NCBI RefSeq assembly: GCF_032854445.1
Contig: NC_088295.1
Coordinates: forward strand, 75,294,028 to 75,358,027
DNA: 64,000 nt
Source of the DNA: Liolophura sinensis
Lineage: Eukaryota > Mollusca > Polyplacophora > Chitonida > Chitonidae
Direction: 5' to 3'
Numbering within the stretch: position 1 is the stretch's first letter; every line of letters starts with the position of its first letter. The notes under the pieces are model-generated. The model was not told the origin of the DNA and ran no database searches. It saw only the letters and a program-made list of their open reading frames with translations. Position numbers and translations under genes: made by a program. Of this stretch, positions 10,467-43,400 are shown piece by piece.

Positions 10467-13400
10467 CTAAAGGATGTAAAACAAGTTCTTTTCAAAAAGC
10501 TTAATAATAAATGTACAAATAACAATTTAACAATAAATGTAAAGAGACATTCTTTTTGTGCAGTATGTTGTTTTAAGTGGCTATACCAGAGATTTTCACA
10601 AAAAATCCATCAGTGCAAATTATATCAAACTTTAGCTTTTACTATCGAACAGCCCAAGTACCTTTCACAAGACAGCCACCTTGTCTGTGCACATCCTACC
10701 ATTCAAAATAGGTCATAAAGTTCTCAAATCTCAAATGTATCCTTTTAACACTATAAATAGTACAGGTATGGGTATGGTATTTACTGACAGGCAATAATTT
10801 GATATTGCGAGAACTCCACAAGATTTTCACGTAACTTACCCTGAGTTCAAAGAATTTGAGAATATCTCCATTTTCATCATGATAGTTAACAGCCCTAGTC
10901 TCCAGCCAGGCATTGTCTGTGTTACGAGGATCATCAGCGTAGCCTGTATAAATCTGACGGGAGAGAAAAAATCAAACAATTTATCAACAAAACCAGGCCG
11001 TTGGTTATTGGTAGTTAAGCATGGTAATAGTCTCAGTCCATACTAAAATCCTATTGGTTTTGTACGAGAATAAGACTGGCTATTCTGCGGGTTTAGGTAC
11101 TTTTTTTTTGTCAGTTTTTACACAGATCTGAAATTTGCCAGGAGTTAAATGTGATTTCAGGTCTTTGGTATTTTGTGTTGTATGTATTACTGGCTGATGT
11201 AAGGACTACAGAAGTCAACATTTATAAGTACAAGTAATGTTAGGTTTGTTGTAAGGAGGTCCAGCCCTTCCACTGGTGTACACTGTAAAAACAACCCTGT
11301 CAGTCTGTTGATGTACACTGTAAAAACACACAAACTCCATGCAGGTGATCACAAATGAACACGCACAATGGTACAAGACAGAACAACTCAACCTTTCTGC
11401 CTACAACAAACAGCCACTTATCTCACCTCCTCCCCACGGGAAAACAGAGCGTCTAGCTGGGTCTTGATCTTCGCCTTTCTGTCAGGGTCGTTCATCAAGG
11501 TACCCAGGGCTTCCTGGGTGAACTCAGACCTCAGACAGTGTACTACAGCCTGACCTGGGTCACAGAAGCCCTGCCAAATGAAATGATTACATAAATCACA
11601 AATTTAGCAATGTATGAGAGTATTAGTTGAAGACAACAAGCATGCAGTAAACAATACAGAACATTGTCACATCTCAGTTTATTTAACCTATTTCCATGCA
11701 CGAAAGTTACAAGTACATGTTTATTTCAAAGAATTATACAAATATTTTTTCACATAATTGTTTATTTCACTGTTTATTGCCTTACTGAAAAACTTTTCAG
11801 GTATATGATGGCGGAAACTGAAGGGCCCAGGGTGAACCACTGACAGATGCCAAGTCACTAACAAACCCATGTACCTGTATGTCACATTATTATATAGGGT
11901 GCGAGTGAGTGAGTGAGTGCTTGGGGTTTAACGTCGTACTCAACAATTTTTCAGTCATATGACGACGAAGGAATCATTAGGGTGCATGTATGTGTAATGT
12001 GCCTCCTTGATGCAGGACGGATTTCCACCGCTCTTTTATTTAGTGCTGCTTCACTGAGACGACTTACCGAAGGCAAGTAAGCCGCCACGCCCGAGCCATT
12101 ATACTGATACGGGTCAACCAGTCGTTGCACTATCCCTTTCATGCTGAACGCCAAGCGAGGAAGTTACAACTTCCTCTTTTAAAGTCTTAGGTGTGACTCG
12201 ATCAAGGATTGATCCTGGATCTACCGGTCCCGAAGCGGACGCTCTACCCATTATTATATAGGATCTATTAAACAGAAATTTGACAACTAACCCCTGGGAA
12301 TGCCCACTGCTTGTTATCTTCTCGCTGGACAGCCACAAACTCTAGCACTGGCTTTCCTCCCTCCATCATCTGCTTGCCATCAGCGCTGCGTTTCCATCTG
12401 GGGAAATACAACCATGAAAAACCTTTCCTGTTCAAATTATCTTAACTACATGTAGACAATGCTACCAGTGATAACTTCCAAGTACGTAACAGGCTGTGTA
12501 TGAACGCTCCAGGATTAGAAACATTAACCGATGAATGCAAGCATGGAATTATTCCAGGAAATTAGTCCGTCAAGGCATTAATATTAAAGACAGGGCTAGA
12601 TTTCAGAACTTAAAGAGTTGCATTTAATCAAGAACACAATCTATGTGACAGCAATGGGGACCCGCAGTAGAATCTTGACATGACAATGTTTTAACACACT
12701 TTTCTGTCTGCAATGAGCAAAAATGATGCTTTGGAGCAGGTCTAAATCTGGAACATTATTATCTTTTGGAATATGAAGGGCCAATATCAAGTAGCCATGC
12801 AGTGGAACCCAACCCTCAGACTTCAGCATTCTCAGATATTTCAAAAGTCCTTGTCTCAATATATGAATTACGTACTTTTTGAAATACAGACCTTTACAAT
12901 GATTCTATTACATAAACAAGGCTGTCATGAAGTTTGTAATGTACAGCACAGTAATTAATACAGCATAGCTAAAGTCAAATTATGAGATGTTTTGGATCCA
13001 CACAGTTTTTTTTAGATACCTGATCCCACATGAATTTTTAAAAAGAAGCTCACAGATGTGTTTGATGTCCAGTAATTACCAGTACCTTGTTCACATGCAA
13101 ATTATAAATATGCAACGTCTGTACCTGGTGACGACTGGGTCCCCGCAGTGATTGGGCCCCCACCTGCCCAGTAACCCCCTGCCGATGAGGCCAGTACGAC
13201 CCTGGGGATTCAGAGGTAGCCCATCCTGTATCTTGTAGGTACCCAAGATGCTCTTCCTGTTCACACGACAGTAACTGTCATATTGGTTCCAGGGTAACAT
13301 AGGGCGAGCAGCAGGGTCCCTGTAACAACACAACAAGCATAGGTTACAGTACGTACACAGAATCACACAAAGCAAAAGGTAATACAGAGATCAAAAGAGA

Positions 13401-16400
13401 AACTTAAGCTAAATTAACTATGCAGTATGTTAAAAAAACTTAAGAGCAAGTAAAGAACACAGAAGAGCAAGTATGCAGAAGCACAAGTGAAAAACAAAGA
13501 ACAGCAAGTAAAATACTACGTACAGGGAAGAGGGAGTAAAAAACACAGGATAGCAGGTCAAGAAGAGAGGCAGTACAAAGCATGTACAGCAAGTAAAGTT
13601 CACGGCTAGTGAAGCACACAGCAAGCAAAGAACAAAACCAGCAGAAATATTCCACAGCTGTATTAAAGTCACATTTGTAAGCGTATACAAACTACTAGAT
13701 AAAAGCAAGCATTTAAATACTGACTCCTATTTCAGTAAAGTTAAATATGCTTTTAAGGGTAAAAACATATGAACAAGGTTTTTGTCTATGTGCCTAAAAA
13801 TCCAATTGCTTGTAAACTTAACAAATGTAAAATAATATTATTGAGAGCGAGTTTACATTTAAAAAACAGGATGTGTAACTTTAGTTCTTCTAATTTCTCA
13901 TTTTTTGCCTTTATTTTGACACCAACAGACCAAAGACCACTAATAAACATATCAATAATGAGCTTAACAGATTTTAATACTAGTAGTATAAATGCAATCC
14001 ATTGTTGTTTGACAGCAAATCTACAGACAGGTAATCACTGTGCACAGAGCTACTCACATATCTAACAGGTTTGCCGAGTCAGCCCAGTCTGGTTTGTTGA
14101 GCACCTCACGGCTTGTATATTCCACAGGTGAGTAATCTTCAAACTCCACCTAATCAAGAGTGAGCAGGGTAGAATCAGGCAAATACAGTTATAAAGGTAG
14201 AATCGATTAAAATGATCAACTGAAGTTGATTGCAACACATGCAGAAATAATATTGTTCCAGTCAAAACATTTGTACACACTATCTGTGCCTAGTGAAAAG
14301 TCACCATATACTAGTACGATCAATAGCCGATACAAGTAACCATTAAGCCTACTACAGAGTGAGAATTCAGGCTTTTCGGATCATACGTATAACAATATTT
14401 TATTCCTTTAACTTGCTGTTGTGGTATACTAATACAGGGAGATATCTGGAGGCATTTTTGTTGCGGAAAACTTTTGGGCTTCCTAACAACAAAGCTAATC
14501 TAGTAAACTGAATAAAAAATGATGGTTTAAACAATAACAAGTTTACTTTCCATACAAATTTGTTTCATTTACAGACATAAATGCTCTGAGTTGCATTTAA
14601 TTAAATTTCTAATGATTTAATAAATTGTTTTTCTAGATATGATCCTGTATCATATATACCTTAAAGATAGCTACCTTATTTCAATGTAGACACACACAGC
14701 TGTATACCTACAAATAATTACAGTTTAAACTTTTAAACCCACTACATGTATAACCTTGATGATGGCAACAAATTCTACACTTCAACAAACTTCAAACCTG
14801 TTCTTCAGCTGAAAGTTACTCTAGATTTTAGCATGGGTCAATCACGTTAGGAATGCCAATTAGCAAATGCAAATTAGCACTGTCAGCCTGATTTGGTCTA
14901 ACCCAGTAGAATTTATTGTTGTAACACCTAACCGCTTATTTCAGTAATACAGTCCCTCACCTCCCAGTACACCTTCTCATCTGGCACCACCCCCCTCACC
15001 ACACTGGAGCCTGGGTATGGCGACTGGCGGGACTTGTAGTGTAGCTCTTTACGGTCGACAATCATCTTCTTCACCAGCTCCTTGTCCTTCTTAGCTTTCT
15101 CCTCAAGCTGTTTTTTCTCTGGGAAGGTAAAGAGAGAGAAACATGCATAATGTTACAGGATTTATGGGAAAGCTAATGGACAGATGTGATATTTTTGCAA
15201 TCAGCCACATGTACTGCAATTCTTCTACCTTTTGGTATGTTTTGTGAGATGTTAACTCAAGCATATTCTCAGGCATTATTCTGTGTTGACTGATAAAATT
15301 ATTTATTTGATATATTTTGCTTATACGACGGCGGTCAGCACTATGGTGGGTGGAAACTGGGCAGGGCCAGGGGGAAACCCACGACCATCCACAGGTTGTG
15401 ATAAAATTATACATTTTGAAGTTGTAAAATTGGCTAAGCCAAACAATGTAGTTTTGTCTCCAAATCAAATTACACCGGTGCACAATTATGAATGACTGAC
15501 AATTTTTCGTTCATGTGTGAAAAGTTTGAGGAGTTAGGCTAACACTACTTGTACATGTCGTGAGGTTATTCGGCATATCATTCCTCAAATCTGAGCCACA
15601 AATATTTTAAACATCACGACAACTAGATATGCCATATGTGAGAAGGTCTGCCAGCAATCTGCGGATGGTCGTGGTTTTCCCCCGGTCAGAGGCTGGTTTT
15701 CTCCCACCATAATGTTGGCCATTGTGTAAGTAAAATATTCTAAGTATGGCGTAAAACACCTATCAAATCAATAAAAACTACAAATGTTTAGTTAGTAACA
15801 AATTCCTACAGAAATGTTTCCTAGTTCCACGCTAGTTTGCTGTAGAATGATTAATTTCTGATTATTGCTACAGTTATTAAAGCATATACATACATGTACA
15901 TTTCAAACACACCTCCGTAACAACAGGAGAAGCTTCAATGAAATACATATATGTGATTCTATAACACTGGGCACTGATGTGACTTAAGACAAAACTTTAT
16001 ACTCTATATTCGCAACATAAAAACCATGAATTATACCTATATCATGTGTCTAACATTGAGCTATTTAATGGGCTCCCCTGGGCTATGGCTGAATCAATTT
16101 GAGTCTCTGACATCATTATTCTGACATGTTACTTTCATTCCCAGCAGACGGCAATGATGTCATAAAAAAACCTAGAATAATGCCACAAAAGACACATAGT
16201 AATTTAAACGGTTTGTACCAATACAGATTCACTGCAAAAATGCTCCTAGATCTGAGTTGCACAAAGCACCATTATCCGGCATAAAATAAAATGTGAGATT
16301 GTCATTAATAAATCAATCATGGACAAAATATAAAACTGAACAAGATATACCACAAAGCCATGAGAAGCTATGAATTCCTACACATGCTAAAGCTTTGGAA

Positions 16401-19400: not shown

Positions 19401-22400
19401 TTAAGGTTAGGAATGGAAGGACTCTTGACAGATTTCGCAGCCATGTTGTTTTCTGCCAAGGACTTGATGATGAAGTCTAATGCCTCAAACGTAACTCCCA
19501 TCTATAAAACAAAACCAAACTGAATGATGATCATGTCTACAATCAAGAATGCACTTAAAAAAAAAACTTCATGAAAAAGACCACAAAAAAAAACCCCAAA
19601 ACATTCAGCCATTTCGTACAGATGTATTTAGCATTTATTAGTATTTATTCATATCATTCATTCTGCAACTTTTGCATACTGCCGAACAAAATGTAAAGTA
19701 TCAGTATGTATCACATGCACAACATAGCATTTCACTGTAAATGTACTGGAAACTATGAACAGCTTCGAGATGGTGTTTAGCAGTTTATATAACAAGACAA
19801 TCCAAATGGCACATCATTTACGAGTACCGTAAATGACCTAAAAGTTTGCTCACAAATGGCATGTTTAGAAATACATGTAAATATAGGTCATAAAATATTT
19901 GTCACTGAAACATTTTTATAAGCTTCCAATAAACCTTATAACATCTTTCTAAGATCTGTAGAATTCATTCACACAATGCAATTTGTCGTATTCATTCATG
20001 AAAGTCAACAACTGGATTTCGTGTCAAGTTCAGGAAACCTGATATGAGTTTTATTTTCATTTCGCTATAACAGAAATGGATTAAGCAGAGGTATTCAACA
20101 CCCGAGGGTCACAGGTTACAAGGCTACGCAAATGGGAGGGAGGAAGGGGATCAGGCGAAATTGGCCTCACCTGTTCCTCTAGTTTTGCCAGCCTACGGTC
20201 AATCTGTGGGGGCATCTTGAGAGTGGGTGCAACCAGCCCAGGGAGGGCCACAGCTGCTGAGGTGTTCTGCTGTTCCTGCAGCTCATCCATACGTGACATC
20301 ATCTGGTCTAACCTACAAAAACACAACACAGGATGGACTTTGCTGTAGTACTATTCATCAGGATCCACGTCACAATACAATGTATAAACAGTAACCACCT
20401 AATCGTCAGGTCAAATAAACCCATGAAAGACTTCCTTTATCATGCGTTCATGTTAGTGGCATGGACATTTATGAGTGGACTTCTTAGTCTACCAATATAT
20501 CTTATAAATACATCAGCAATCTGCAATTGTTTTGAGTTGAAATCCAGCTCATGTTGGCTTCCTGTCCTGTCAAACATGTATGAAGGTCTTCCAGCAACCT
20601 GCAGATGGTTGTGGGTTTTCCTCTGAACTCTGCCCGGTTTCTCCTTAACCTAATGCTGGCTGCCATTGTACAAGTGAAATATTCTTGAGTAAGGAATACA
20701 ACTTCAATCAAATAAATAAATTCATCACCAATCTGTTCGCAATTGGGTTCATCCTTGATGATGGTAAGGGTATAAGTACATATACTCTTACAGCCTGTTA
20801 TAATAATGTATTAACTGGATGAGTCTTTCTGTGTATATCATGCTGTTCCAGTGAGGCAGCACTTCACATGTCAGCAATAAGACTAATATGATGAAGTAAA
20901 CACTGTTGTTTGTTTATTTGATGGGTGTTTTACGCTGTACTCAAGAATATTTCCCTTATATGACCTCGCCAGCATTATTGTGGGACGAAACTGAGTACAG
21001 CCTGCCAGAAATCCATGACCATCCGCAGGTTGTGGGCATACCGAGCCGGAGAGGAAGCCATAGACATTGTTGTGACGTGATCATGGAAAGAAATACTGGA
21101 AGTGACACTTAAGACACAGGTAAACAAAGTCTTTATGACAGTTCATACTGAACAGTACCCACTGATGATGGAGCAAGCCTTTAGACAAAGGTAAACAGTC
21201 AGTCTTTATGACAGTTTTATACCACACAATACCCACTTACCTAAAAGTGACAATTAAGACACAGGTAAACAAAGTCTTTATGGTAGTTTCATACTCCACA
21301 GCAGTAACTTCCCTGGAAGTCAGCCTTAAGACACAGGTAAACAGTCAGTCATCATGACAGTTTCATACAGCACAGTAGTCACTTACCTGACATAAGACAC
21401 AGGTAAACGAAGTCTTTATGATAGTTTCATACTGCACAGTAGTAACTTACCTGGAAGTGAACCTTAAGACACAGTCACACTTCAAGACAGTTTCATACCA
21501 CACAGTACTCACTTACCTGGAAGTGACAGTTAAGACACAGGTAAACGAAGTCTTTATGATAGTTTCATACTGCACAGTAGTAACTTACCTGGAAGTCAGC
21601 CTTAAGACACAGGTAAACAGTCAGTCATCATGACAGTTTCATACCACACAGTACTCACTTACCTGGAAGTGACAGTTAAGACACAGGTAAACGGAGTCTT
21701 TATGATAGTTTCATACTGCACAGTAGTAACTTACCTGGAAGTGAACCTTAAGACACAGTTAAGCAAACACACTTCAAGACAGTTTCATACCACACAGTAC
21801 TCACTTACCTGGAAGTGACAGTTAAGACACAGGTAAACGGAGTCTTTATGATAGTTTCATACTCCACAGTAGTAACTTACCTGGAAGTGAGCCTTAAGAC
21901 ACAGTTAAGCAAACACACTTCAAGACAGTTTCATACCACACAGTACTCACTTACCTGGAAGTGACAGTTAAGACACAGGTAAACGGAGTCTTTATGATAG
22001 TTTCATACTGCACAGTGCCCACTTACTTTGAAGTGACACTTAAGACACAGGTAAACAAAGTTTTTATGACAGTTTCATACCGCAAAGTGCCCTGACAGTC
22101 TCCGACAGTTTTATACTGCACACTTACCTGACATGAGATGCGGTCACTTTATTCTCCATACTTTCCATTGCCGTTATCTGAGTTTTCCGCATGAACTCAT
22201 CTCGGTTCATATCTTCCCACAATTCCAGTCTTTTCTCATCTTCTGATCTCTCTATTATTTTTCCTAGAAAATGTTCAGCATGCAAACTTTAGATGTCCAT
22301 TTTCTGGTGCTATGAAAATGAACAATGTATCATTGGTGTTACATGTATTGATGAATCACATGTACTCATTTTGTACATTTACGTCAATAACCAAATAATA

Positions 22401-25400
22401 ACATCCCGTAATTTCAACTCATATGACATTTCATAATACATGTAATTATAAACTGTATGAAATCAATAGATTAATTTCTTAAATGAAGCTAATGATAAAC
22501 TGAACATGTTAAATATCTTTTTCTTTTATTTAACATTGTATAATCTTTTCAATTCTTATCAAGCATGTCAATGAATAAATTTTGAAGCTCAACAGTTAGG
22601 ACAACCACTCAAAGCAAATACAAGACAAATTATTTGAGAGGTTAATATCACTGCAACATAAAATGACTAGGTAAACACAAGCACGAGACACTACAAAAAC
22701 GGAGGATTAGGGCTACATGTGGGGGCTCCAAAACACGGCTTCACACTCAAAAATGTTTCACCCCCAAAAGTGCATTTTAAGGAGTACATAGATGAATCAC
22801 AAAATATAACTTTTGGTTCTAACACTCATATTTTTCCCACCACGATATCACTTTAGCTTTCAAACAAACCTCAATACACCTTTCTAAGATTAATAAAACT
22901 CTCACAATCAGGGAAAATGTGCAATGCCAAAGGCGGCCCTTTAAAGAGACACGGTTGCCCAAATATTAGGTATTTTTGCGTTGTTACAGAATGACATGAG
23001 TATCAGGGATTTTTCTCAAGAAGTGAAAGTTACAAGCTTTCCATTAATCCCATGCCCAGTATTGTATGTTACATGAATGTTTAAAAATAACAAAAAAACT
23101 AAAACTGAAAATTGTGCCAGAATATTTAAATGAGGCGCTGTCAGTTCAGTGGAAATGGAGCACACGCACAGCGCTCTGTAAACTTCATATGTAAACAAAC
23201 ATGGCTGATCACGTGGGTAAAACAAGGACTTGCGACTTGCTCATGACAGGATCGGCCAAAAAGAGGCGTAAACAAGAGCTCGCCAGGTTGGCAAGCAAGT
23301 CTAAGAGTTGTAACTGGTGGTAGGTTTGAATGGTGGAGTAATCTTCACTGAAGAAAGAAAAGGGTTTCACGAAGCACAGTCAGTGCTTGTTGAACCTGCC
23401 ACTTACCGGCAGCTTAGTTTGTGGACAACTGTGGTCGGCCTTAAAACTCTATTATATGAAGCATTTTTAACCAAGATTCCTCTTTTTATTACATGTCAGT
23501 TATGGTACAATATGTATATCTTCAGTATAATACTTAGATGGAGCAATACCGATTGAGCAGGAAAGATAAGATCACACTGTCCCTGTTTCTGTCACCCACA
23601 CGTACCTCACTTGACATGTTTGTTTTGACTGGAACTTTCCGAATGCTGTGCATATGCTTCGGGCCCTGACAGCTGAATATTAAAAATGTTCAAATGGCCC
23701 ATCCTCTTCGTGTTGAATTTGAATAACGGGAGGAATTCTCTGGGCTCGTACGAGCTACATACTCAATGAATACTTTTTCAACATGAGTGATTCAGTTTAT
23801 GAACGAACTTTAACACTTCATTAAGACGTCGCAATCTGAACTGTTCAAAAAAAAAATTTTTTTTTTTTTAAATTCAAATTTTGGGCAACCATGTCACTTT
23901 AACTAGGTTATTTACCTTTGGACAATAAGCTATAATACATGCATATATTAAAAAAAAAAATCGTACTCAACAATAAAATTAATTTTCAAATCTTCTGATC
24001 TGTATTAATACTGTTTTCATATAGTTAAATTTTTGGAACCAATAACAAATCAGCATTAAAAAAACAAAACAATTCTTCTCTGAATAACATAGATCAATCA
24101 CTTTTTATCAAAATCTGCTTATTTAGAAAGCTTGGTCATCTTACTTAAAAACAATCAAAGGTGTCCATCCAAATGTCGACAATGACTTACTGAAGCTGAC
24201 GGTGGCCTTAGTAGAGGTTCTATTTACTAAACAACATCGCCTGAAGCAGCGGACAGCCAGCAGGTACAGGTGGCTGACAATGATAAAGGGCGGGGGCAGG
24301 GGAGGGCGATCATAGTAGTCGTAGATCAGGTTATAGCGCAGAAAGTACCAGTGCAAGTCCGTGTTGTCCTGAATTTTCTGAAATGTGAAACTAAAGCAAA
24401 AAAAAAAACAAAACAAAAAAAAAACATTAAAAGCAGGAAAATCACAATATATGCACGCACACGAAATATCAAAACATAAAGCAAACAAAATATTTTCCTA
24501 AAAGGTTAATACGGCAGAGAGCTATTTCTTTTGCAGTGGTTTGAGGCATGACGTCGCTACCTCGTGTCTGACATCTGACAAACTAAGTCTCAACTATTCA
24601 TCATGAATATCAGAGGCTCAGCACACAAATTAGTGTCCATGCCTGAAACCACGAGAAAGGAAGGGCTCCTAATAAGTATACGTCTACCATTACAAAAGAA
24701 ATAAGCAGGCATTAACACGCCATAAGCAAAAGGCAACAGGACAGTCACAAAATACGTGTAGGAAAAGGAAATTTTACCACAAAGTGTTTTCGGTGAGTTC
24801 TAGATCAGGACAGAGTGCCTGAAGAACACAGAAGCAAATTAGATATAGAAAGCTGTGAGAGAGGGAGTCGAGAATGGTGCATGACAGTTAATAGACAGTT
24901 TGTTACAACAATTCACATGGTGGAGTATAGCAGCCCAAGGTTTTATAACCAGTAGCTACACTAGCTGCTGAAAGAGTATGAGCCGAATGTCTGCTGTAAG
25001 TGTTAGTACTTACTGAATCCCGAAGGTTTAGTCAAACAAGTACCACAACCTTTCTGCGTACAGTAACGCAGTATGAGGAAGAGATGAGCTATAAGGATGA
25101 GCGGAGCAGGCAACGGGGGGCGGTCAAAATACTCGTGAATTAAATGGAAGCGAGTGAACTTCCAAATACTGTCTGTGTTCTGGTGCATTCGCTCAAATGT
25201 GTAACTGGAAAAAGAGGTTTTGGATAAATTCTAACTACATGTACAGTTTTTCTAAAAATGAATTTTTCTTCATTAAAACACTCATTACACAGAAACAATT
25301 TTTGCATACGTTTAGTGCCATAATTTTGATAAATATACGACACATAAAATACAAATATATATTTATGTATGTATACACATGCAAGTACTCTGACTCCACC

Positions 25401-28400
25401 ATTACATAAATGCATTACATGCTATATATGCAACAATGATGTAAAAATGCATATCAAATTTGCAAAGCCATATGTTCCAAATTCCAGCCATGCAATGAAC
25501 AGTCAGACTGAATTATGTTGCTATAAACACAGTGTAAAAGCTCTCTGAAGCTGTGTAGTCTTTGAATTCACTGTTTATGAGACATATTTTGCACAGAAAA
25601 GCAATGAGAAAGTATGCAAACACAGCTGTGTTCACTGTGTTGATTAATATGCATCCAGCCTGAGACTAGCTTATTACAAACAAGAATTGGTCCTCACAAA
25701 ACAACTACGTTCAAGTCACTGATAATATTCAGAAATGCATGAGTGAAGAACATAATATTATTTCAGTATTAATAGAGTGAGCAATAAGCATGGAATTAGT
25801 ACTGGCATATTTAAAATCCTGTAACAATATTTATTAATATGGTAAAGACATCTTACTTTAAAAGAGCTTATTTTTTTCTTGGACTGTTGTCTTGAGCAGA
25901 GCAGTAATTCATTTATTAAATATATTTCAGGTTCAAGGACAGAGGAAACCAGAAAACCAGACAAAAATAAATAAATAAATAAACTCCAACTTGCCACATA
26001 ACACTTAATACCCTCAATCATGACTGAATATTTGACAGTTCTGATATATGTAAGGCTACTGCAAAGTGTTATATCATCACTCATATAGTTTATTGGGCTT
26101 TGTTGATACCATAATACATTTACTACACTGACAGGCTGATTTGCTGTTTAATGCAATAATCTGTTTATTTATACATGAATGTCTTGAACCTGGCATTTTG
26201 TTGCGTTCAACATCCCTTACAGAGCTCCTCAATATTTGCAGACAGGGCTGATTAACCCCAAATGCAAAATTCTGTATGAATGGCCCATAGTACATTATCG
26301 TTCCCATGGAGAGTTAATATGATTTCATAACTTTTAGCACAGTCTATTTGAACAGACAGAATCACCCAGTAAGTGGTAACCATATAACTGCCACAAACTT
26401 AATCTGTGTAGTTAGACCCGTGTAAGTGAGCATACAAACTGAAAGAATGCATCTCCACAAACAGCATGCCAATAATGTCAAGTTATGTTAGAGAATGTTG
26501 TGGAACTGGGATTAATAAATTCTAGATTTGCCAGTGTGTTGTGGCCTCTCACTTTGTCAGTGAAAAGCCTTCCCTACCTGAACATGGCGATGAGGAGGTT
26601 AAGCAGTAGGACATTGGTCAGCAACATGTAGAAGCCCAGTAGGATGGGCACCACATAGGTGGCCACAACGGTGGGGCAGCGAGGTAGTGTGTTGTTTGAG
26701 TACAGCGCGTAGTCAAAAGTGCACTGATCCTGGCCTAGCAACAGATGAACCAAACTATAAACACCTAATTAAAGTTTATTTTAACGACAAAGAACTGATG
26801 AGAGCTTGTTAATCTTCATTACTGAATATCCAATGATCTTTCAATTAATATGTTTAATTACAAAGCACTGACATGAGCTCTTTGGCTTCTCTCAAGAAAT
26901 ATCCAATAGCCATTTAATTAATGTCAATTACACAGCACTGAGTATGACTAGAGCTGATTAGTTTTACTTTTTAAATATTCAATGGCATTTCAATTAATCA
27001 CCTTAATCTGTTTAATTCATTTTTTTTTTACTTTAAAATATACATATTAGCTTTCATATTCATGCTAGATGCAATATAATGACATCTAATTTCAAATAAT
27101 GGTCATTAATAGAATCAATGATGTTGCAAGAGACTGGGTATTTTAACCCAATACAGAACATTGCAGAACTACCATGCCTCAAAATCCAATCTACTAAAAA
27201 AACGGCAAAATCTCCTATTTCTGCTTACTAAACTTTCAATGAAATCAATAGCATGTATATTAAAAACTGTTTCTTCTAATGAAAACCTACACAGACATTA
27301 CAGAACCGTGTAATTTTATCCTAGATTTCATTTCTGAAATATAAATGTACACGTACTTTCAAAACACTTTTAATCTGGTGTGGCAAGAAATACATCACAT
27401 TACTAATACCTTCAATGTCCTCCAAGAAAAGTTCTCCAAACATCTGCCAATAAGCCTTCCTGAGAACATTGATGATAATGGCGGGTTCCAGTTCTGTGTT
27501 AGGGTAGAGTATGGCCTGAGAGGCCACACCATAGCCCACGATAATCACCAGCAGGATCACCACAAAGTACATCAGATCTACAACCTAATAGAGGATATTG
27601 TCACAGAAAGTAAAGAACGTGGTTACAAAAAACATAGAACATGGTTACAAAAAACATAGAACATGGTTACTGTAACAGATGACTGATTGATGATACAATT
27701 ATTTTATTGGTAAATGAGCTCAGCACCATCTATGACAAAAAAAGACAAATCAGTTTTAGCATAAAGGTATATCCCTAAGAGTTTTTATTGATTAATTTAT
27801 TTGATTGGTGTTTTACGCCGTACTCAAGAATATTTCACTTATACGACGGCGGCCAGCATTATGGTGGGTGGAAACTGGGCAGAGCCCACGAGGAACCCAG
27901 GTTTTATTGAAGAAATATACCCAAACGAAAGAAAACCTTAGTTTTCTTCATCCCTGAAAATCTAATTTTACTTCACCAGTATTCCATAACTATTTTCCAT
28001 AATTTTCAATTACACTCCAAATCAAGAAAACTGCGTTTAGAATATTGTCATCTTGTCAGAACTGTCATGAAATCTGATTCTGAGAGATGGGTGATGAATT
28101 ATTCACACAAAATAACCAAGGGTAGCTGGGGGTTGAGTATTTACTTAAAAAGAACATTTAAGACTCGGCTTGTAGTTCATTAATATGTATACCGGAAGAG
28201 AGCCAATCAGGTCATGGGTCTTCCACGATAGGTGCACAACTTACCATTCTACCAATCATGACAAGCTTTGGTCCTAGCTGCTTGTGGACGGAGAAAATAT
28301 GGAGCAGTCTAGCAAAAAACGTAATGAGATTCAGGGCCAGGATGACACGTGCGGCCTCAAAGGTATCAGAGTGTGGTATTGACCGTAACACCATGCCAAT

Positions 28401-31400
28401 TATGAAGAGAAGTATCGTCAGAACGTCCACCAAATTCCACATGTCACGCAGATAACTGCTGATTTTTGTGCCTAATGACGTGGAGCTCTGAGATATCACC
28501 TAAAAACAAAAAATTACAAATCATTTCAAAAAAAAAACAAAAACGAAGAGCCACTCAAATTTATTATTCACATGCTACGGTTAGTGCATGATCATTTTAC
28601 CTGAAACAAAAATATTTACAATGAAATGTGTAAACGAACGTCTATCCTAAAACCAAGTGTCTGCACCAAAATTCCAATGACCCTAACAAAATTAAAAGGA
28701 CCTGAAAGTTATGATAATATCATGCTTTCTAAAAATTCAATAACCATTTTACTGATCAACATGAAAACTGGCCAAAGATAAATTTTAAATTTTAGCAATT
28801 TAATAACATATATAAGTGGGGGCCCTCTGCTCATAAAACTGACAAGGATCTTAAAATTAAATATTTTTTTACTATGTCCTTGAACCATAATCAAATAAAT
28901 AAATAAATAAAATAACAGTTTATTGTATAACACTGAACAATTTCTAGCATTGGATATGAAATTTAAGAGATTTTGGTCTTGTTTTATTTCTATAACCTAT
29001 TTTCATTCCAAAGAATAATACTCTGGAAAGTGTAACCATGAGAAGGTATGAGTTGTAGTAGTAAAACTTACCTGTCTTAATTCTTCTACAAATATTGTGA
29101 ACACCCAAACAATGAGAACCAGCTCTGCATTGGATAGTTGGGGAGAAAAGACAACCAATAGGATGTAGCTGTACAAAACAAGGAAGGCCAAGTAGGAAAT
29201 CTGAAACACAAGTAGAGCTGTTTATTTAAGGTGCACGATAATACTCGGCCTCCATCAGTCAAACCTGAAGGCCCACATGAAGATGCGACAAACAGAACAA
29301 TCACAATCAGGGAACGCACTAGAATATTCTTCTTCTTGTACTTAAGACATGCCCTGAGATGATTGAGGCCTTGTGTATTCCACATCATAAAGTCCCTTAA
29401 TCTATGATTAGACCTCCTCACATTATGAATAGGACTTTGCTATTAACTATTCACCACACCATATGTTTAGAGTGATTCAGACATACCTCACTCACCAGAT
29501 CATGATGTGATTTATGTCTAGAACTCACCAGATCATAAAGTTATTTATGTCTAGAACTCATAAGATCATCTGTGATTTATGTCTAGAACTCACAAGATCA
29601 TTTGTGATTTATGTCTAGAACTCACCAGATCATGAAGTGATTTATGTCTAGAATTCACCAGATGATTTGTGATTTATGTCTAGAACTCACCTGATAATGA
29701 AGTGATTTATGTCTAAAATTCACAAGATCATTAAGTGATTTATGTCCAGAACTCACAAGATCATTTGTGATTTATGTCTAGAACTCACCAGATCATGAAG
29801 TGATTTATGTCTAGAATTCACCAGATGATTTGTGATTTATGTCTAGAACTCACCTGATAATGAAGTGATTTATGTCTAAAATTCACAAGATCATTAAGTG
29901 ATTTATGTCCAGAACTCACAAGATCATGAAGTGATTTATGTCTAGAGCTCACCAGATCATGAAGTGATTTAAGTCTAGAACTCACCAGATCATGAAGTGA
30001 TTTATGTCTAGAACTCACCAGATCACAAAGTTATTTATGTCTAGAACTCACCACATTATAAATGTATGAAAACTGATTTATGCCCAGCACTCACCACATT
30101 GTAGCAGAATGTGATCACAGGAGCATTGAAGAAGAACCAGAATTTCTCTCCAACGGTCAGTCCAGATTCTCTGTTTGAGGAGTTGTCTTCTAAAGGCTCA
30201 TCAGTGGATCTTCAATATAATACATGCTACTAGTATCTCTCCATTTTAATTAATCTTAATTAATTAGTTTCAAATCCTTATATATGATACTGGTGTTATC
30301 ATTTACTTATGAGTTAGTTTTCAGCTTACAAATAAAAACATTATTTGCTTTTGTCAAGCCTCTCAATTTAAACAAATTGTAGAAAGGTTGAATACTGGCA
30401 GCTAGTTTTTTCTCCCAGTCATGAATTCAGGTGTTTTTTGGGGTACAACTTGCCCTTTAGCTACAACTGCAGGGGCACATCTCCTATCATAAGCATGGTT
30501 ACATCATCAGCACTGTTAAATCATCAGAAGTGCATTGTTTCCCGAACTGCTGCAGCCAACTGACAGAAAACAAGACGATGGTTCTTCACTTACTTGTTAC
30601 CATTGTTTGTCATCACTGACATTTTTGTTTGTTGCCGCCTCATGCGAGGTTCACTGTGATGATCCTGCAATGACAAAACAAAAAACTTCAAGAAACAGGT
30701 ATATGACTATGGAAACAATGCTTTCACAATAAAAGTCCCCTACCAGTGTGAGACATCAGAATAATAGCTAATATATTGAAGTCCACACCTAAACAAGTAA
30801 TTTTGCTGAAAATGGATGAAATGGCCAAAACTTGGTCAGTAATTTCAGTCAATGAAACAAAAATTTTGAAAAGTTTGGAAAACTATTTTGTGCACAAAAG
30901 GGACAGAATTTTTACCAAAATAGCAAACCTAAACCAGATCTCTTTACATTCTGATAAATTCTAGCCTGGACTAAACAATCTAAACTAAAAACAGGACATG
31001 TTTCTAGATTTACTTCTTAACGGCACATTTTGAAGTGTCTCTTTTAAAGAGGATCTCCAATGCTGTACTGTCATAATAATGCTATAAGCATCCTCATTAG
31101 GACTGGGAGAGTTAGTGATTGGGGTCTAATGTCGTACTTAACAATTTTACAGTCATATGACGACGAAGGAATCCTTATAGTGCATGTAATGTGCCTCGTT
31201 GTTGCAGGATGGGTTTCCACTACTCTTTTATCTAGCGCTGCTTCACTCAGATGACTTACCAAAGGCAAGTAAGCCACCCTATTCGAGCCATTATACTGAT
31301 ACGGATCAACCAGTCGTTGCACTATCCCCTTCACGCTGAACGCCAAGCTAGGAAGTTACAACTTCCTCTGTTAAGGTCTTAGGTGTGACTCGACCCAGGA

Positions 31401-34400
31401 TTGATCCTGGATCTCCCGCTCCCGAAGGGGACGCTCTACCAACTAAGCTATCGGAGCCGGTAAATCATCCTCGTTAGGTACACAGACAGTACTACCACAT
31501 CGTTAATAGTTAAGCATTCTTGGAGTTTTGTCATTGTTGATATACCTCTTCAAAATCTACCCTGATACCATGATGTGTTATTTCTAAGCAGCTTTTTATC
31601 AAAGACAAAAAAAACCCCACTCACATGAAGTGTATGTCAGATGAGAGACAGTTAAACAAGGTCCAGGGAAGTAGTTTGATTTCATTTTACAATATTTTTT
31701 TTCATCTAGTGAAATGCACTTGAATTTTGGTGGCCATATCGGGGCCAGTGACGTCACATCAGGTTTTTACCACTTATCATACATAAATCATAACACAGTA
31801 TTTCACAGTTATATGAATGCATTCACTGAACGGATCTTGCAACAAAATATTTCAAACTAAAAACATGGCTATGATGTCCTTGATACCCCCTGAGTCCTAA
31901 CAGGCCACTGCAGAATTCTATATTATGAAAGCATTTTTCTCAGTTGAAAAAAAAAATAACCTACTTTCCATGACAGTGTTTAATGGTCTTTCCTGTGACA
32001 TACATGATTTTAGTGCTTTCTTTGGCTGTAAAAAGGTTTGTGTATTATAAACAGAAACAGGATAGTTCATTACCTCAGATTTTGACTTGTCATGACTGAT
32101 CTTTTCCAGTTTCTCAAAGCGGATCAGACAAAACAGCACAGGTGGAAATAATACACACAACAAGAGCTGTAAATACAAAACAATACATGTAGTTTAAGAT
32201 CAAATACAACTGTCTGCATGAATAGTTTTAGTCTGCTGTAATGACCACAAGAATCATGGCATGACAAACATGCCATGTACACATGCATGCATGGATGTGG
32301 GGCACAGATAAATGAAATGCTACACATTAAATTAAAATTGCTTAATAATTTGCAAAATACTACTAAACTAAGAAGAATCAGCCTTGAAGTCATGACAATT
32401 AAGATCAGGTTTTTAAAAAACACAAGGGTTAATTTCTATGTTAAATTTAGGCACCCATCGACATAGATCTTGCCTAAATCATGACAAATGGGAAAGATCG
32501 GAGGGAAACGTTACACATGTACATGCCAATACATCAACAGCTCACAAGTCCATAGATTTTCTTTGTATCCTCTTTAGTACCTTCCATATCTTTGTCTCCT
32601 TTGACATCTGTCCCATCCATATGGTATTGAGAAGAGCCTGGCAGGCGGAGTGTGAGATAAACCTCTTGTTGTCCGCCTGTACAGCTATCAGAACACAGGT
32701 AGCTTTTCCCCAGTACTTAAGCTCACGCACCAGCAGAGACAGGGACCTTTTCTCATCTGCCTCATAGCACTCATTTAACACTCCTATGGCAAGGTCCTCG
32801 TATTCACTGCAGGAGGCAAAACTTCTTGTTACAAAATTTCAATGTACCTGACAAAAACACCTGCTTTATTCCAAAGGCCAAAATCAAGGTTAAAGAAGAT
32901 AATTCTATGTATAAAATCAGACTTGGTAGCAAGGCTACCTAGGAGCTTACCTGTAAGAGACACTTGAATGCAAATCTTATACTCAACACAAAGTACTGAG
33001 AGATGTGAATTTGGACACACTTCCCCTGAGTCATTGTTTTTTAAATATATATAAAACTTCAGCTCAAAAGATGCAGTGCTTTTTGAAAATACCACCATTA
33101 ACATTTACTTAAGTATTGATTTTAATGCACTGAAGTCATGAATATGCACTCAGCGCATCAAAAATGGAAAATCCCCCTCATATTATTGTGCTTTAATGTA
33201 TATCTGTAAAACCTGAGCTCAATACATGCAGAACTTTTTGAGATACCACCGCTAACATTTACTTTATAAGGTAAACAATGATTCTAATACACAGCACACT
33301 AAAATATTCAAAGCAATTAATATGTACTAATTGATTAATGATTATCAACGATGGAAAATGCCCTTTGTGTCAGTGTGCTTTACATGTATACAGTACTATT
33401 TCACATACCACCCCTAACATTTACATTAACATTGATTCAAACACACAATACACTAATTCATGAAGTTTTTAATTTACAGCAATTAGTATGTACACAGCAC
33501 ATCAATCAGCGGGTTAAAATTTACTTATAATCATCTTTAAAGATTTGTTAAGCATTACCATCACAAAACTGGCCTTAAGGAATCGACCCCTTGGGCCTGG
33601 AATAAGAGTAGCTGACTTACACAGCGTGGGCATGTAGTTTGGTTTCCAGGTCAGAATCCTCCGTCTGCTCCCCTAAGGACTTCAGCAGTTTGTTGGCCAC
33701 CAGGGCAGAAGGGATACATTCCTGCTCAGACAAAAGCAGAAAACACACATGTACACTGCATACATATGTATCAGGCAAAGGTGATAGCTGAATACTTTAA
33801 TTACCTAGCAGTTCTGAGATTGAAGCTGAAATCCCTGATCAGGATAAAGAAGCATCTTGCTTCAAATATTTCGAAATTCCAATTATTACATTTCAACTGG
33901 AGTTGATAACACTAAAGCTGACAAGTGAATCATTGTAAAGACTTTGTTACGCCAATTTGGTCACATTGCTCAAACACTCCCCAGCCTACCTTCACTTCCT
34001 CACAGAAAACACACATTCCTTCCCTAAGCTGGTTTGCTTAGAATGCTCGTATATATACATCCCCAAGCTTACTTAAGCCCCTTTTCCCAGAACAGTTTGG
34101 TTTATTAAGGCAGTTTGTTCAGAATGCTCCCAAGCTTACTTAAGCCTTTTCCCAGAACAGTTTGGTTTTTCAAAGTAGTTTGTTCAGAATGCTCCCAAGC
34201 TTACTTAAGCCTTTTCCCAGAACAGTTTGGTTTTTAAGGCAGTTTGTTCAGAATGCTCCCAAGCTTACTTAAGCCTTTTCCCAGAACAGTTTGGTTTTTT
34301 AAGGCAGTTTGTTCAGAATGCTCCCAAGCTTACTTAAGCCTTTTCCCAGAACAGTTTGGTTTTTCAAAGTAGTTTGTTCAGAATGCTCCCAAGCTTACTT

Positions 34401-37400
34401 AAGCCTTTTCCCAGAACAGTTTGGTTTTTAAGGCAGTTTGTTCAGAATGCTCCCAAGCTTACTTAAGCCTTTTCCCAGAACAGTTTGGTTTTTTAGGGTA
34501 GATTGTTCAGAATCCTCTCAAGCTTACTTAAGCCTTTTCCCAGAACAGTTTGGTTTTTCAAAGTAGTTTGTTCAGAATGCTCTCAAGCTTACTTAAGCCT
34601 TTTCCCAGAACAGTTTGGTTTTTCAAAGTAGTTTGTTCAGAATGCTCTCAAGCTTACTTAAGCCTTTTCCCAGAACAGTTTGGTTTTTTAGGGTAGATTG
34701 TTCAGAATGCTCATACATCCTGAAGCTTACCTTAGATTCCTCCCAGAACAGTTTGGACATCTCTCGTCTGTTCATCATCACAGCCCAAAGGAAAAGCTCT
34801 CTCTCTGGACGCTTGAAAGCACTGGCACTCTTATTACCTCCTGTCATAACAATACATTACAGACAGAGAACATGTAGCAGAAAATATTTGATCAGTGGTT
34901 TTAATGACCAGCTTTGAAAAACTGTTAACTGCAAAAAAGGTAAAAATTATTCCTGTCCTTCATACTTATTTACCTGTGTTTGATTGCAGGACAATCTCCC
35001 TGCAATTTTGCACCTATATGATGACCGGTCACTTCCCACACCTGATATACAGTACAGACTTGCAAACCAAACTGGTGGAAGGCGTGTTGTCTTTTATGCC
35101 TTGTCGTTGGAACCTTTTACCACTGAGCTGCATTCAGCTATACTACACTAATTTTCGCTTCAAACTACTACGTTTATTTGTGTTATAACCTAAAACTATC
35201 ACCAGGGGTTCTGGTCTTCAAACACTTGTCTTGAAAGTCGTACGTCTATTTATTAACTGTACATTTTACCCTCTAGAGTGATGTCTAGAAAGGGTTTATA
35301 CAGCAGTCCATGAGTGGGTTTGCTTGGTATGATTGCCAGAGCTATTCCCATTGTGGACTGAACATGTCTGAAGTAGGTGAACAACAGGTAACAATATAAC
35401 AATGAATGGAATAAAATACTGAATAAAAGATAAACACTGATATGACATGTATGTAGAAAATTGCAGTTCTATCAGCGACATCACACAAGCACATAGGTCA
35501 CCTATAATAATACATGACAAACAATGACCTGTGCAAGTCACTAGGCGATAAAACCCTGGATACACGCTCACTCTGCTGGGATTAACAACCTGCATTACAT
35601 TATGTATCATGCACAACAAGCGCATATTCTCACCTGGTTCAGTTGTCTCGTGTGGTTCTTGCATGAGGGCATCAGCATCCGTGAACATGTATCTGGAGTC
35701 TCGGAAATACAGGGGCTCATAAAAATCCCCCATTAACGTTTTGATCAAGGTTCCAATGTCATGTAAAGAAGCATATTGACGTGTCTGAAAAAAATTGTGC
35801 ATGAGATAAAGCAAAAAACCTAATACACTGATGCATATAGAATATCATATCTGATGTAAGTTTCAGAAAACTTCATTGTATTCATGGCATTAACAAAACT
35901 AAAAACCTTATTCCACTTAAAGCACGTACGGGCCTTAAGATGATACTTTTGATTCCAACACTTAAGTTTTTTCTGACATGACTGATAAGAAATTAATCAA
36001 ACTTCACAAAAAACTCTTGAATCACTAAGGTAGATAAATCAGACTCCAGCAAAATGTGTCACTTGAAAAAAGCTAAATTTCAGGTGAAATACAGTGGCTA
36101 GATATTGATTAAAGTGTGTCCTAACTTCTTGAGGCATACACAATTCAGTAAACCACAGTTGATGTGACCTATATATAAACCTCTGTTAGATGCTTAATAC
36201 ATGCAAATTTCCAAGCAAAATTTGGTAAAAATATAAAATTTCAGATTCCTTTTTTCTATAATGTTAAAAGTTTATTTCACATTTCAAACGGTCAGACCAT
36301 GTTTAGTTCATATTTAAGACTGGCATCAAATGAAACATGAATGTCAATAGCCAACCTGATCTGCACCACTCACTATTTATTCTTCTAAAGCTGTTTAAAA
36401 TTATCAACAGAACAAAAAACTTGTACCTTGCTTTTAGTCCTGAGCAACAGCTGGTAGAGTTGACTTTTCAGTGGAATCTAAATAAAAAAAATAAAAATAA
36501 AAAGAACAAAAACAAAAAAAGAAAAAAAAAAGAACATGTTATTTTGAAATAATTTTCTAGGATGTTACTATTGCGACACAATAAAACTAATAGTTCCAAT
36601 CTCCTGAGCTTGCTTTCCAAATGAGATTTTATGTCACAATCTTAGACACTGTGTTGAAATCAGTACACACATACCAGTGACTGTATGTATCTGTTTTATA
36701 AAGTATATCTAACAGCTGACTTGACCTGAAATTTTTTCAATAGCCATCATTACTATTTTCCAAATTTACAACATTTCATATGTTATTATGACAAGACATG
36801 TCACAAAAATTAAAAATTATTTTTTTTGTTAGTGAAAGTATCTGATACCACAGATGCTACCAACAAATCCAGTCACGATGTAGAAAATGTGAACAACACA
36901 CATACCTGGTTATACAACTGTAGGAGGCGCTTTATGGTGAGAAACTCTCTCAGACTGACACCATTCTCCAGAAATAGTTTAACAAAGTCTGTTCTGTCCA
37001 AGAGTATAGCAGACAGCATAATGTCATCTAAACTGCCCGTCTGGGGAAAAGATCACAGTGACAGCTGGGTTCACATTCACATACTAATCAAACCAAACTC
37101 ATTTTGTGATGCTTTGCAGATATATGTACTAAGATTCCATGCAAGAACAATGTCATTTGAAATGTGAAGTGGCAAAGAATTAAAACATCTGTATGTTTTT
37201 GAATCTCCACTTAAAACCATGAAATCAAACTTTTATATTATCATTTCTCACCTTCCTCTTACAATGAGAATGAAGCATTTATTGTCCAGGTCACCTAGTA
37301 TATAGTGCATGTACCATGCAGTATATACTGTATGTAGCATGCATATTCAAGTCATCAAAGCTGTAGGGTGAGTGCTCTAGCTTTTATCTAGAATTAAGTT

Positions 37401-40400: not shown

Positions 40401-43400
40401 TCTATAGGTATTGGAGTCCAGAAATGTACACTTTAAAGCCAATACACAAAAGACTTATTTGTTACCAAAGAGCTTGTCTGTGTGAGACACATGAATGCAA
40501 AGGTTCAACTCAACGCATAAAGAACTGAAATCGTGAATTTGGTAATTTATGGGCGTTAATAGAGCATCAGCAATGCAACATCCATCTTGCGTCATTGTGC
40601 TTTACATGCATGTAAAACTTCAGGTCAATACATACAATACTTTTTAAGATACACTAAGTCAGGAATTGATTGATTTACGTTATTTAATATGCACACACCC
40701 AATCAACGATGAAATAACCCCCTCATGGTACTGTGCTCTGCATGTGATCAAACCCTGAGCTCAATACCTGCAGTACTGTTTGAGATACCACCCCTAACGC
40801 TTTGTTTAACATTGATTCTTGTACACAGTACACAGGAATTCAGTGTTCATGAAGTCAGGAATTCAGTGATTTTCAGTACTGTACACACTGAATCAAACCT
40901 AACATTTGGCTTACCATTACTTTATTATTGGACGCTGACGCCGACGCTCAGGGTACGACATAAGCCTTGCCTGTATTATGTACAGGTGAGCTCAAAAAGA
41001 CGCCGACGCTCAGGGTAGGACATAAGCCTTGCCTGTATTATATACAGGTGAGCTCAAAAAGACGCCGACGCTCAGGGTAGGACATAAGCCTTGCCTGTAT
41101 TATATACAGGTGAGCTCAAAAAGACGCCGACGCTCAGGGTACGACATAAGCCATGCCTGTATTATATACAGGTGAGCTCAAAAAGACGCCGACGCTCAGG
41201 GTACGACATAAGCCTTGCCTGTATTATGTACAGGTGAGCTCAAAAAGACGCCGACGCTCAGGGTACGACATAAGCCTTGCCTGTATTATATACAGGTGAG
41301 CTCAAAAAGACGCCGACGCTCAGGGTACGACATAAGCCTTGCCTGTATTATGTACAGGTGAGCTCAAAAAGACGCCGACGCTCAGGGTACGACATAAGCC
41401 TTGCCTGTATTATATACAGGTGAGCTCAAAAAGACGCTGACGCTCAGGGTACGACATAAGCCATGCCTGTATTATATACAGGTGAGCTCAAAAAGACTTA
41501 ACATACATATAAATCCTATTAGTTGAACAAATGTAGAAATTTTACTTTGTTTTTTTTTTTTGTGTTTAACCTGACTACATGTGCGAGTACTTCGACATCT
41601 GTCTCTTGACTTACATTCTCATTAATTAGCGTTTCTTTCCGCTGAATGCAGCCCCAGGTGGCTATACCAATCGCGATGACTTTCTTCTGTGAAGTTTGTG
41701 CTAGCCCGTAGTCCCGTACAGCCTCCCCTACATGCTTCATCACCCCGGCATGTGTTCCTCCAGTGATGATCCATGCTCCTGTTTACACAATATGGTAGAC
41801 ATAAAATACACAGTTTACTTCTCAAATTCTTCTGTATTCAAATTTTTTTGTAACCAGGTTTTCTTGTCTTAGTTTTATGAGTAACATTAGTTCTTAGTTC
41901 ATTTAAAATACTCTCCTTGTGACAAATGTTAAGTCATAGCATGTTGCAGAAAAATTAAGGGGCGTAATGAAAATAAACTACTGTTAAAAACAGCCTGAAA
42001 TTTCACTGACAAATTATTAAATCTGACACAGTCTCAAATAATCAATTCTGGCACACTGACAAACAGGGAGATGGTACTGAATTTTGGTGGATTACACCAC
42101 ATGTCCTGTAGTAAGGCCTTATGGCACACAGAATTATTACAATCTGTTAACACAAACATTAAGATAACAGAGGCTATTTTAGGTAACACTGTAAATCTAA
42201 TTTCTTGTAACTGTTTTCATTTTCAGAAAAAAGACACTGTATAAGTCATAATCACATAAACTGGCACAACTTACACAACCATTTTATTCAAGTTATGAAA
42301 AACTGACTCTTTAGAGAGAACAAGGACTCAAATTTCTAAAGCTCTCTGATGTTTTACGGTTAAAAACCATGTTTCCTAGGTTTCACAGTTAAAGCCCTAC
42401 CACAGTTTCACTTATACGCTGATTTTGTTGACTCACCTGTGCTCTGTGCAGCCTTCATCAGGCCTCTCCTGAAGACCTCCTTAAGTCTGGGTTTCATGAG
42501 GAAATTTTTGGCTCCACCAGTAACAGAGATGAGGAGGTTGGGATGCTCTAAGTCCCAGTGGTTCATCATCAGCTGGAGCAGGAGGCCAGTGTCCGTCTTG
42601 TGGTCCACTCGTACATACTGAAACACAAAGCGGGAGACGCCATAGACCTCACATACAGTTCATGTACATGTACTGTGAATTCTGGTTTGTCTTTATGAAG
42701 TTACTTCAAAACCATAGGAATGACACATCTTGTGCTTCACACACGCATACTTCTGAAACAGGGAGAGTCAGAATGAGTCAAAACCTGGGAAACAGTTGAT
42801 TTTAAGTGAAATCCCGTCTCTCAACCTGAATTTTCGTCTGATAAGATGATATAGAATAAACCACGATAAGCTGATTGTGGAAATAGGATTTCCTGAGTTA
42901 AAGCTTTACTTCAATACAGCAATGGTTTATAGGCTCGAATGAATGTGTTTATACCTAAAATTCAGTAAGCCTACGCATATGAACACCATGCAGCGATGAT
43001 ACTGTATCCATGTATTTTGGGACAACAGGGTGACATGAATGTAAAGATTTGAGAAACGAAACACTTCATGTACCTTGCCAATTTTCTGTCCAAACCCGAC
43101 AAACTCTATGTCTCCGAACGCATTGGTTGGCACTCTCATGGTGTGTGTTTCTTCCCTCCATGGCTCCTCTGGACGGGGATTGTCCAAGGCAGCTGAGGAA
43201 TGCTCAGATCTCTTGTATCCACAATAACATTTTGGGTGAGAACTCCCGTGGGGGCTGTTTAATAACAAAAGGGGACTTATCTACATTGCGTATGCAGTAA
43301 ATATCCTGTAAACTTCATTAATTTTTTTCATTACTACCCAGCTGAGCTACAGAACAGAAAAGTGATTAATTGGTGAAAAATCGTGTGTACATGGTTTACT

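Follow-up and report, generated by a model that had tools for sequence, protein, structure and literature searches.

Candidate mutually exclusive exons for the TRP domain of a TRPM2-like (TRPM-beta) channel gene in Liolophura sinensis

The TRPM2-like gene

The window, by which we mean the whole 64,000-nucleotide stretch of Liolophura sinensis DNA that was analysed, carries on its reverse strand a gene for a TRPM2-like channel, and this identity, proposed in an earlier note on the same DNA, was borne out by SLOG, TRPM2-like and channel domains above the Pfam cut-offs. Specifically, the N-terminal SLOG/LSDAT exons lie in two open frames (41522..42659, (-)) that match PF18139 (SLOG-in-TRPM) with E-values of 4.9e-21 and 3.1e-19 (75.8 and 69.9 bits, cut-off 25.7), and a third frame scored 25.6 bits, just under the cut-off. 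Upstream frames match PF25508 (TRPM2-like domain) at 3.2e-20 and 1.6e-08, and PF00520 (Ion_trans) was detected at 2.7e-18 for the hand-joined S3-S6 segment and at 1.4e-08 for the S3-S4-S5 exon alone. This latter exon (28239..28493, (-)) encodes WNLVD, with the Ca2+-site N..D, and the S2 exon (29072..29221, (-)) encodes EELRQ, with the Ca2+-site E..Q spaced as E893/Q896 of Nematostella TRPM2 (nvTRPM2); the boundaries of both exons are approximate, and both are common to the two forms described below. On the basis of motif and spacing, the predicted Ca2+ site is thus formed by shared exons, while TRP helix 1 has a Glu in one of the alternative exons (22a) and an Asp in the other (22b).

The C-terminal NUDT9H-like exons (10840..15152, (-), limits approximate) were recognised by eye. 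The hand-joined pieces scored 20.6 bits against a Pfam NUDIX cut-off of 21.1, and the Nudix-box exon alone matched no Pfam family; matches to the pieces occur at a NUDT9-like locus on C10 (41% and 71%) and at loci on C8. The Nudix box is degenerate (11603-11421, (-)) in that the RE..EE residues are not found, the sequence being SEFTQEAL compared with REFSEEAL in the C10 locus, where the box is intact (GMVDIGE..REFSEEAL). Another degenerate box, GLVLPGE..RTLVKEAL, is present at C8:46.72 Mb (L012). Since key ADPRase residues are described as conserved in non-vertebrate TRPM-beta (PMC13143021), the degenerate boxes here and at C8:46.72 Mb may mark additional losses of ADPR-hydrolysing activity. 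Under the naming scheme of Morini et al. 2026 (PMC13143021), the gene in the window would be a TRPM-beta.

Two alternative exons between exons 21 and 23

Exon 21 (26578..26734, (-), start approximate), which was placed by its translation, its donor and a paralogue match, encodes the end of the pore loop and S6 and is common to both forms; the numbers 21 to 23 are labels carried over from an earlier reading. It is followed by exon 22a (25014..25204, (-), 191 nt), exon 22b (24191..24390, (-), 200 nt) and exon 23 (22128..22263, (-)), the last being common to both forms and in frame after 22a or 22b, and the three introns 21-22a, 22a-22b and 22b-23 measure 1373, 623 and 1927 nt. Exon 22a encodes TRP helix 1 (WKF..R..LIHEY), the TRP loop, TRP helix 2 and a linker, and 22b an alternative TRP helix 1 (WYF..R..LIYDY), loop and TRP helix 2 followed by an Arg/Cys-rich linker (RCFRRCC). 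Both have phase 2 in and 1 out, neither contains a stop codon, and both have consensus splice sites. The junctions between these exons use GT donors and AG acceptors: the exon 21 donor is CAG/GTAGGG after 26578 (the slash marks the junction), the donors of 22a and 22b are identical (TTCA/GTAAGT), and the acceptors are CTCTTTTTCCAG/TT for 22a and TTTTTTGCTTTAG/TT for 22b.

Four splice products were joined by script. The frame stays open through exon 23 in 21-22a-23 and in 21-22b-23, while 21-22a-22b-23 has a stop inside 22b and exon 21 joined directly to exon 23 has a stop after nine residues. Both exons are thus open, homologous to each other, equal in phase and bounded by good splice sites, and the frame is kept by single inclusion only. 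Scripted splicing reproduced the coordinates, strand, lengths, phases and frame logic given in the earlier note, and its central claim, a mutually exclusive pair enforced by frame, is supported, since one copy is read in frame and both or neither lead to an early stop. Two details had to be adjusted: the motif said to be shared by the exons is present, but with one residue rather than three between LI and (D/E)Y, and of the Cys/Arg-rich tail ascribed to 22b the Arg-rich RCFRRCC is peculiar to that exon, but Cys also occurs in the tail of 22a.

The end of the TRP-helix exon is in phase 1 at six of nine paralogue loci (L001-L005 and L008, with the donor chosen by eye among listed candidates; L006, L007 and L009 are ambiguous), and therefore the frame asymmetry behind the exclusivity was probably inherited along with the exon and not newly made.

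Junction-derived repeat arrays

Three introns of the gene open with a minisatellite approximately 20-40 nt past the donor (the exon end was read by eye in two of the three cases), and the units resemble the exon-intron junction. Within the scanned region, 20500-35500, these are array A (22088-21096, (-); 72/146-bp unit, 11 GTAAGT), array B (30053-29490, (-); 33-bp unit, 12 GTGAGT) and array C (34712-34062, (-); 65-bp unit including the exon end AAACTGTTCTGGGA, 10 AAGTAAGC), and three shorter arrays are also present there. An array of the same kind occurs at L012:559-917 (C8:46.72 Mb), where a 104-bp unit, present 3.5 times, repeats the Nudix exon end and its GTAAGT donor; by position and strand, L012 is probably part of the C8 TRPM paralogue L002. 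We take arrays A, B and C to resemble the 'mirages' of amphioxus, and they would offer many potential decoy 5' splice sites.

Homology of the two exons

Exons 22a and 22b are 49% identical at the amino-acid level over 49 ungapped columns, and in a six-frame search of the whole genome 22a used as query retrieved 22b at an E-value of 7.4e-14. Each exon also matches TRPM structures in the PDB, which supports the proposed location of the pair at the TRP helix: the best matches (E 1.1e-12 for 22a and 6.4e-14 for 22b) are both TRPM2 chains, presumably those of zebrafish, and at E ≤ 0.001 there are 62 distinct PDB sequences for 22a and 70 for 22b. Because no Pfam family matches either exon alone, their identity as TRP domain is based on these PDB matches. 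At E ≤ 10 the genome-wide searches gave 12 matches for 22a and 13 for 22b, and those other than the two exons themselves are TRPM- or TRPS-looking loci, or weak (E above 0.01). Relatives in viral contigs were not confirmed.

Since 114 of 3731 sense windows of 64 codons in the flanking introns are also open, openness alone says little in favour of exons, and the case is made by the homology. The pair is unlikely to be an assembly duplicate, its members being strongly diverged and located on the same contig. When the 554 sense-strand open frames (≥30 aa) were compared with the window itself, 64 had non-self matches; among these 22a/22b is the one pair recognised as coding exons, the other 62 frames being transposon- or minisatellite-like by eye, and no other duplicated coding exon of the gene was seen in this comparison.

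Paralogues and the age of the pair

The two closest paralogues, L001 and L002, are located at C8:46.709 and 46.736 Mb, 27 kb apart and on opposite strands, i.e. they are two genes. With joins made by eye, their S3-S6 cores are 60-61% identical to that of the present gene and 69% identical to each other, and the comparison with a vertebrate TRPM5 core gave 35-44%. No convincing second TRP exon was found in the L001 and L002 stretches; the best stray match (28 aa, 36%, E 0.11), at L001 5126-5209 upstream of the L001 TRP exon, is at chance level. In L002, a Leu at the position of the PIP2-contact Arg is combined with a His at that of the TRP-box Lys (WHFQLY), which is unusual.

Each of the two C8 paralogues has a single TRP exon, with which 22b shares 58-60% identity (48 aa). 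Of 49 codons, positions 1, 2 and 3 differ in 19, 10 and 25 between 22b and C8A and in 13, 10 and 31 between 22b and C8B, as is seen when sequences have long diverged while the protein was under constraint. Between 22a and 22b the corresponding differences are 24, 15 and 32 of 53 codons, with a dN of 0.42 and a saturated dS for which there is no NG86 value; dS could not be computed for four of six values in the dN/dS analysis. The saturated dS and the codon-position differences between the copies mean that the exon duplication is old.

In the exon tree, 22b groups with the two C8 exons (83/88) and 22a falls outside, and the exon duplication would therefore predate the gene duplication. A sister relation of 22a and 22b is not rejected by the tree test (p = 0.119, and 0.141 without the long row L008), and the two exons group together (75/66) once the LH and TRP-box residue columns are left out. 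A tentative reading of these trees, which we consider rather doubtful, is that the pair predates the split from the two C8 paralogues, that an ancestral TRPM-beta spliced in either a K/E (22a-type) or an aromatic/His (22b-type) TRP helix, and that each C8 gene kept the 22b type only; the splice choice would then have been turned in part into separate genes, while the present gene would still use splicing to switch how its gate is coupled to Ca2+ and PIP2.

A different arrangement was noted at C8:16.935-16.950 Mb, where L006 and L007 (C8:16.938 and 16.945 Mb, 6.5 kb apart) carry near-identical copies of two exons, TRP-helix and S2, from a TRPS-like gene, the L007 copy having a frame shift after LISYL. 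As the S2 exon copy is also shared, they look like a tandem copy of part of a gene and not like an exon pair, and could represent a tandem duplication, a pseudogene or an assembly duplicate.

Residues that differ between the exons

In the Nematostella TRPM2 structure (PMC5976436), TRP helix 1 comes after S6 and is connected by a loop to TRP helix 2, a segment that dips back into the membrane; aligned to this protein, exon 22 spans all three elements entirely. Key positions were numbered on Nematostella TRPM2 residues 1086-1136, i.e. K1101 (TRP box), R1104, E1110 and R1114, and compared among 17 rows: 11 exons of this genome, which include two near-identical copies and one weak match (L009), and six vertebrate or Nematostella proteins. 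Weak genome matches on C7, C9 and C6 and a second one on C13 lie outside this count.

At the E1110 position, Glu is present in 16 of the 17 rows and Asp in 22b alone. In nvTRPM2, E1110 is reported to line the Ca2+ access tunnel and to hold the Ca2+-binding Gln; the E1110A mutant shows a modest loss of Ca2+ affinity, smaller than that of direct ligand mutants, and belongs to a set of mutants that are robustly stimulated by PIP2 (PMC5976436). The K1101 position is Lys in 12 of the 17 rows, and the remaining five, Tyr (22b), His, His, Arg and Ser, are all from this genome. The TRP-box Lys is thus present in 6/6 vertebrate or Nematostella rows and absent in 5/11 TRP-helix exons of L. sinensis, so that the Tyr of 22b is not exceptional. 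At R1104 and R1114, two of four positions mutated in a PIP2 study (PMC8125603), both 22a and 22b have Arg; in that study, mutation of conserved residues in the membrane interfacial cavity of TRPM2, including two Arg of the TRP domain, reduced PIP2 sensitivity to varying extents.

The earlier note had linked the Lys/Tyr difference to PIP2. Lipid density is reported near the TRP box of the nvTRPM2 structure (PMC5976436), and mutation of K995 in rat TRPM8 lowered the apparent PIP2 affinity (PMC9647539). The difference itself is seen, but the PIP2 argument is weaker than had been stated, since R998 (R997 in flycatcher) is the only one of the three TRP-domain residues of TRPM8 tested that is in structural contact with PIP2, TRPM3 K1128Q, the equivalent of K995, behaved like wild type (PMC9647539), and the Lys is lacking in 5/11 exons as given above. 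R998 is also named as a PIP2 contact in PMC7153793, and the equivalent Arg is kept in both 22a and 22b. Judged on the alignment, the better-founded candidate difference is therefore Glu (22a) versus Asp (22b) at the E1110 position, rather than Lys versus Tyr in the TRP box. As Asp keeps the charge, the functional effect of the substitution in 22b may be small.

Control of exon choice

Fox, Nova, PTB, CELF and ACTAAC-type motifs showed no convincing enrichment in the three introns (seven motifs, 200 dinucleotide shuffles), the rarest of the 21 tests being TCAY in intron 22b-23, where 23/200 shuffles were at or above the observed count. Nor did long-range intron-intron RNA pairing stand out, with best duplexes of -33.1, -34.3 and -35.1 kcal/mol compared with -31.8 to -39.6 kcal/mol for four mono-shuffles per intron pair. 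The flanks of the two exons share at the DNA level a 36-nt match at 75%, which is nearly all coding, and 15- and 27-nt matches at E 0.57. Steric exclusion between splice sites was ruled out because the 623-nt intron between 22a and 22b is too long for it; minor-spliceosome incompatibility was likewise ruled out, as the minor-type donor consensus differs from the GTAGGG and GTAAGT present here. The sequence itself shows a single putative means of enforcement, a disrupted frame leading to transcript decay, and in view of the lack of steric, minor-spliceosome, motif and RNA-pairing signals, exclusion would most likely come about by regulated site choice backed by nonsense-mediated decay.

Discussion

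We suggest that 22a and 22b arose by tandem duplication and are used in a mutually exclusive manner, so that the complete TRP domain of a TRPM2-like (TRPM-beta) channel, from TRP helix 1 through the loop and TRP helix 2 into the proximal linker, is exchanged, which would tune how Ca2+ and PIP2 couple to the gate; we assign this reading a probability of roughly 0.7. Of its parts, it is quite probable that both exons are used and that each transcript contains one of them, transcripts that include or skip both being lost because the shifted frame soon reaches a stop codon; that the swap tunes Ca2+ and PIP2 coupling to the gate has, in our estimate, slightly less than an even chance. The 22a channel would keep the family-typical Lys and Glu. 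The 22b channel would have a Tyr in the TRP box and an Asp at the position whose Glu borders the Ca2+ access tunnel and keeps the Ca2+-binding Gln in place, and because of this Glu to Asp change and a Tyr in place of Lys near the lipid density at the TRP box it is predicted to couple Ca2+ more weakly, i.e. to need more Ca2+ and to rely more on PIP2. The S2/S3 Ca2+ site (EELRQ, NLVD) and the PIP2-contact Arg would be unchanged between the forms.

Other explanations were considered. One exon might be effectively silent, a duplicate in slow decay that transcripts seldom include, so that there would be a single functional isoform; chance openness of the flanking introns (114 of 3731 windows) and the modest identity of 22a to this genome's other TRP exons in the tree (31-49%, 22b included) would agree with this. 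However, both copies have consensus donors and acceptors, matched phases and no stop, each shares 49-55% identity with the two vertebrate TRPM2 rows (47-49 aa), and a duplicate this old (dS saturated, dN 0.42) should have decayed if silent, which makes it decidedly improbable. It is also quite unlikely that the pair serves mainly as on/off control with functionally equal versions, in which skipping or double inclusion would yield a channel truncated after S6 and nonsense-mediated decay: one skippable exon of the same phase would be enough for that, and 22b has Asp where 16 of 17 rows have Glu in addition to the TRP-box Tyr, although both double inclusion and skipping do lead to early stops and the substitutions in TRP helix 2 are mostly conservative by eye.

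Highly improbable, in our view, is intron read-through that would make 22b (or 22a) an alternative last exon and give a channel ending soon after the TRP domain, without the NUDT9H region. The 22b frame (24497-24144) does continue for 16 residues beyond the donor and an AATAAA, a candidate polyadenylation signal, is present in the AT-rich intron, but 22b has a full GTAAGT donor and a phase that fits exon 23. The earlier proposal that the switch matters functionally for the Lys/Tyr exchange in the TRP box and for PIP2 affinity draws on the effect of the K995 mutation in rat TRPM8 (PMC9647539) and on the Lys being found in all six vertebrate or Nematostella rows; we consider it unlikely, as the Lys makes no PIP2 contact in TRPM8 structures and TRPM3 K1128Q is like wild type (PMC9647539), and 5 of the 11 TRP exons of this genome do without it.

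Mutually exclusive exons in ion channels are already well known, and the preferred reading, an exclusive pair for the TRP domain of a TRPM channel, would be a new instance at an unusually informative place. Tandem duplicated exons of this kind are described as enriched in ion channels, and Drosophila cacophony and voltage-gated Ca2+ and Na+ channels are examples (PMC9741552). As in those cases, adjacent homologous exons of compatible phase, used one at a time, would here retune a gating or binding region; unlike them, the pair lies in a TRPM channel and covers the TRP domain, and the main text of PMC9741552 has no word beginning with TRP. With TRPM2 and TRPM-beta (PMC13143021) the gene has in common the SLOG N-terminus, the TRPM2-like and channel domains, Ca2+-site residues, the TRP domain and a putative NUDT9H-like C-terminus, and differs from the TRPM-beta described there in having two alternative TRP-domain exons and a degenerate Nudix box. 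Mutually exclusive exons also occur in the TRPM gene of Pieris rapae, but these are alternative first coding exons that carry the start codon and swap about 30 N-terminal residues, not TRP-domain exons (PMC7143563). In the open-licence literature, among the matches listed and in the sections available, duplicated TRP-domain exons are not described for any TRPM gene, and the main texts of scallop and oyster TRP surveys (PMC8539334, PMC8004665) contain no word beginning with splic-.

In TRP channels, the TRP helix is the part believed to couple the gate to Ca2+, lipid and the sensor-like domain. Should both exons be expressed, they would constitute a natural, clean domain swap of this helix, and two natural versions in an otherwise identical channel would provide a direct test of what it contributes. 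An invertebrate TRPM2-like channel would then be retunable by splicing at its Ca2+/PIP2 site, and if both exons are used, one gene could give rise to two differently tuned channels.
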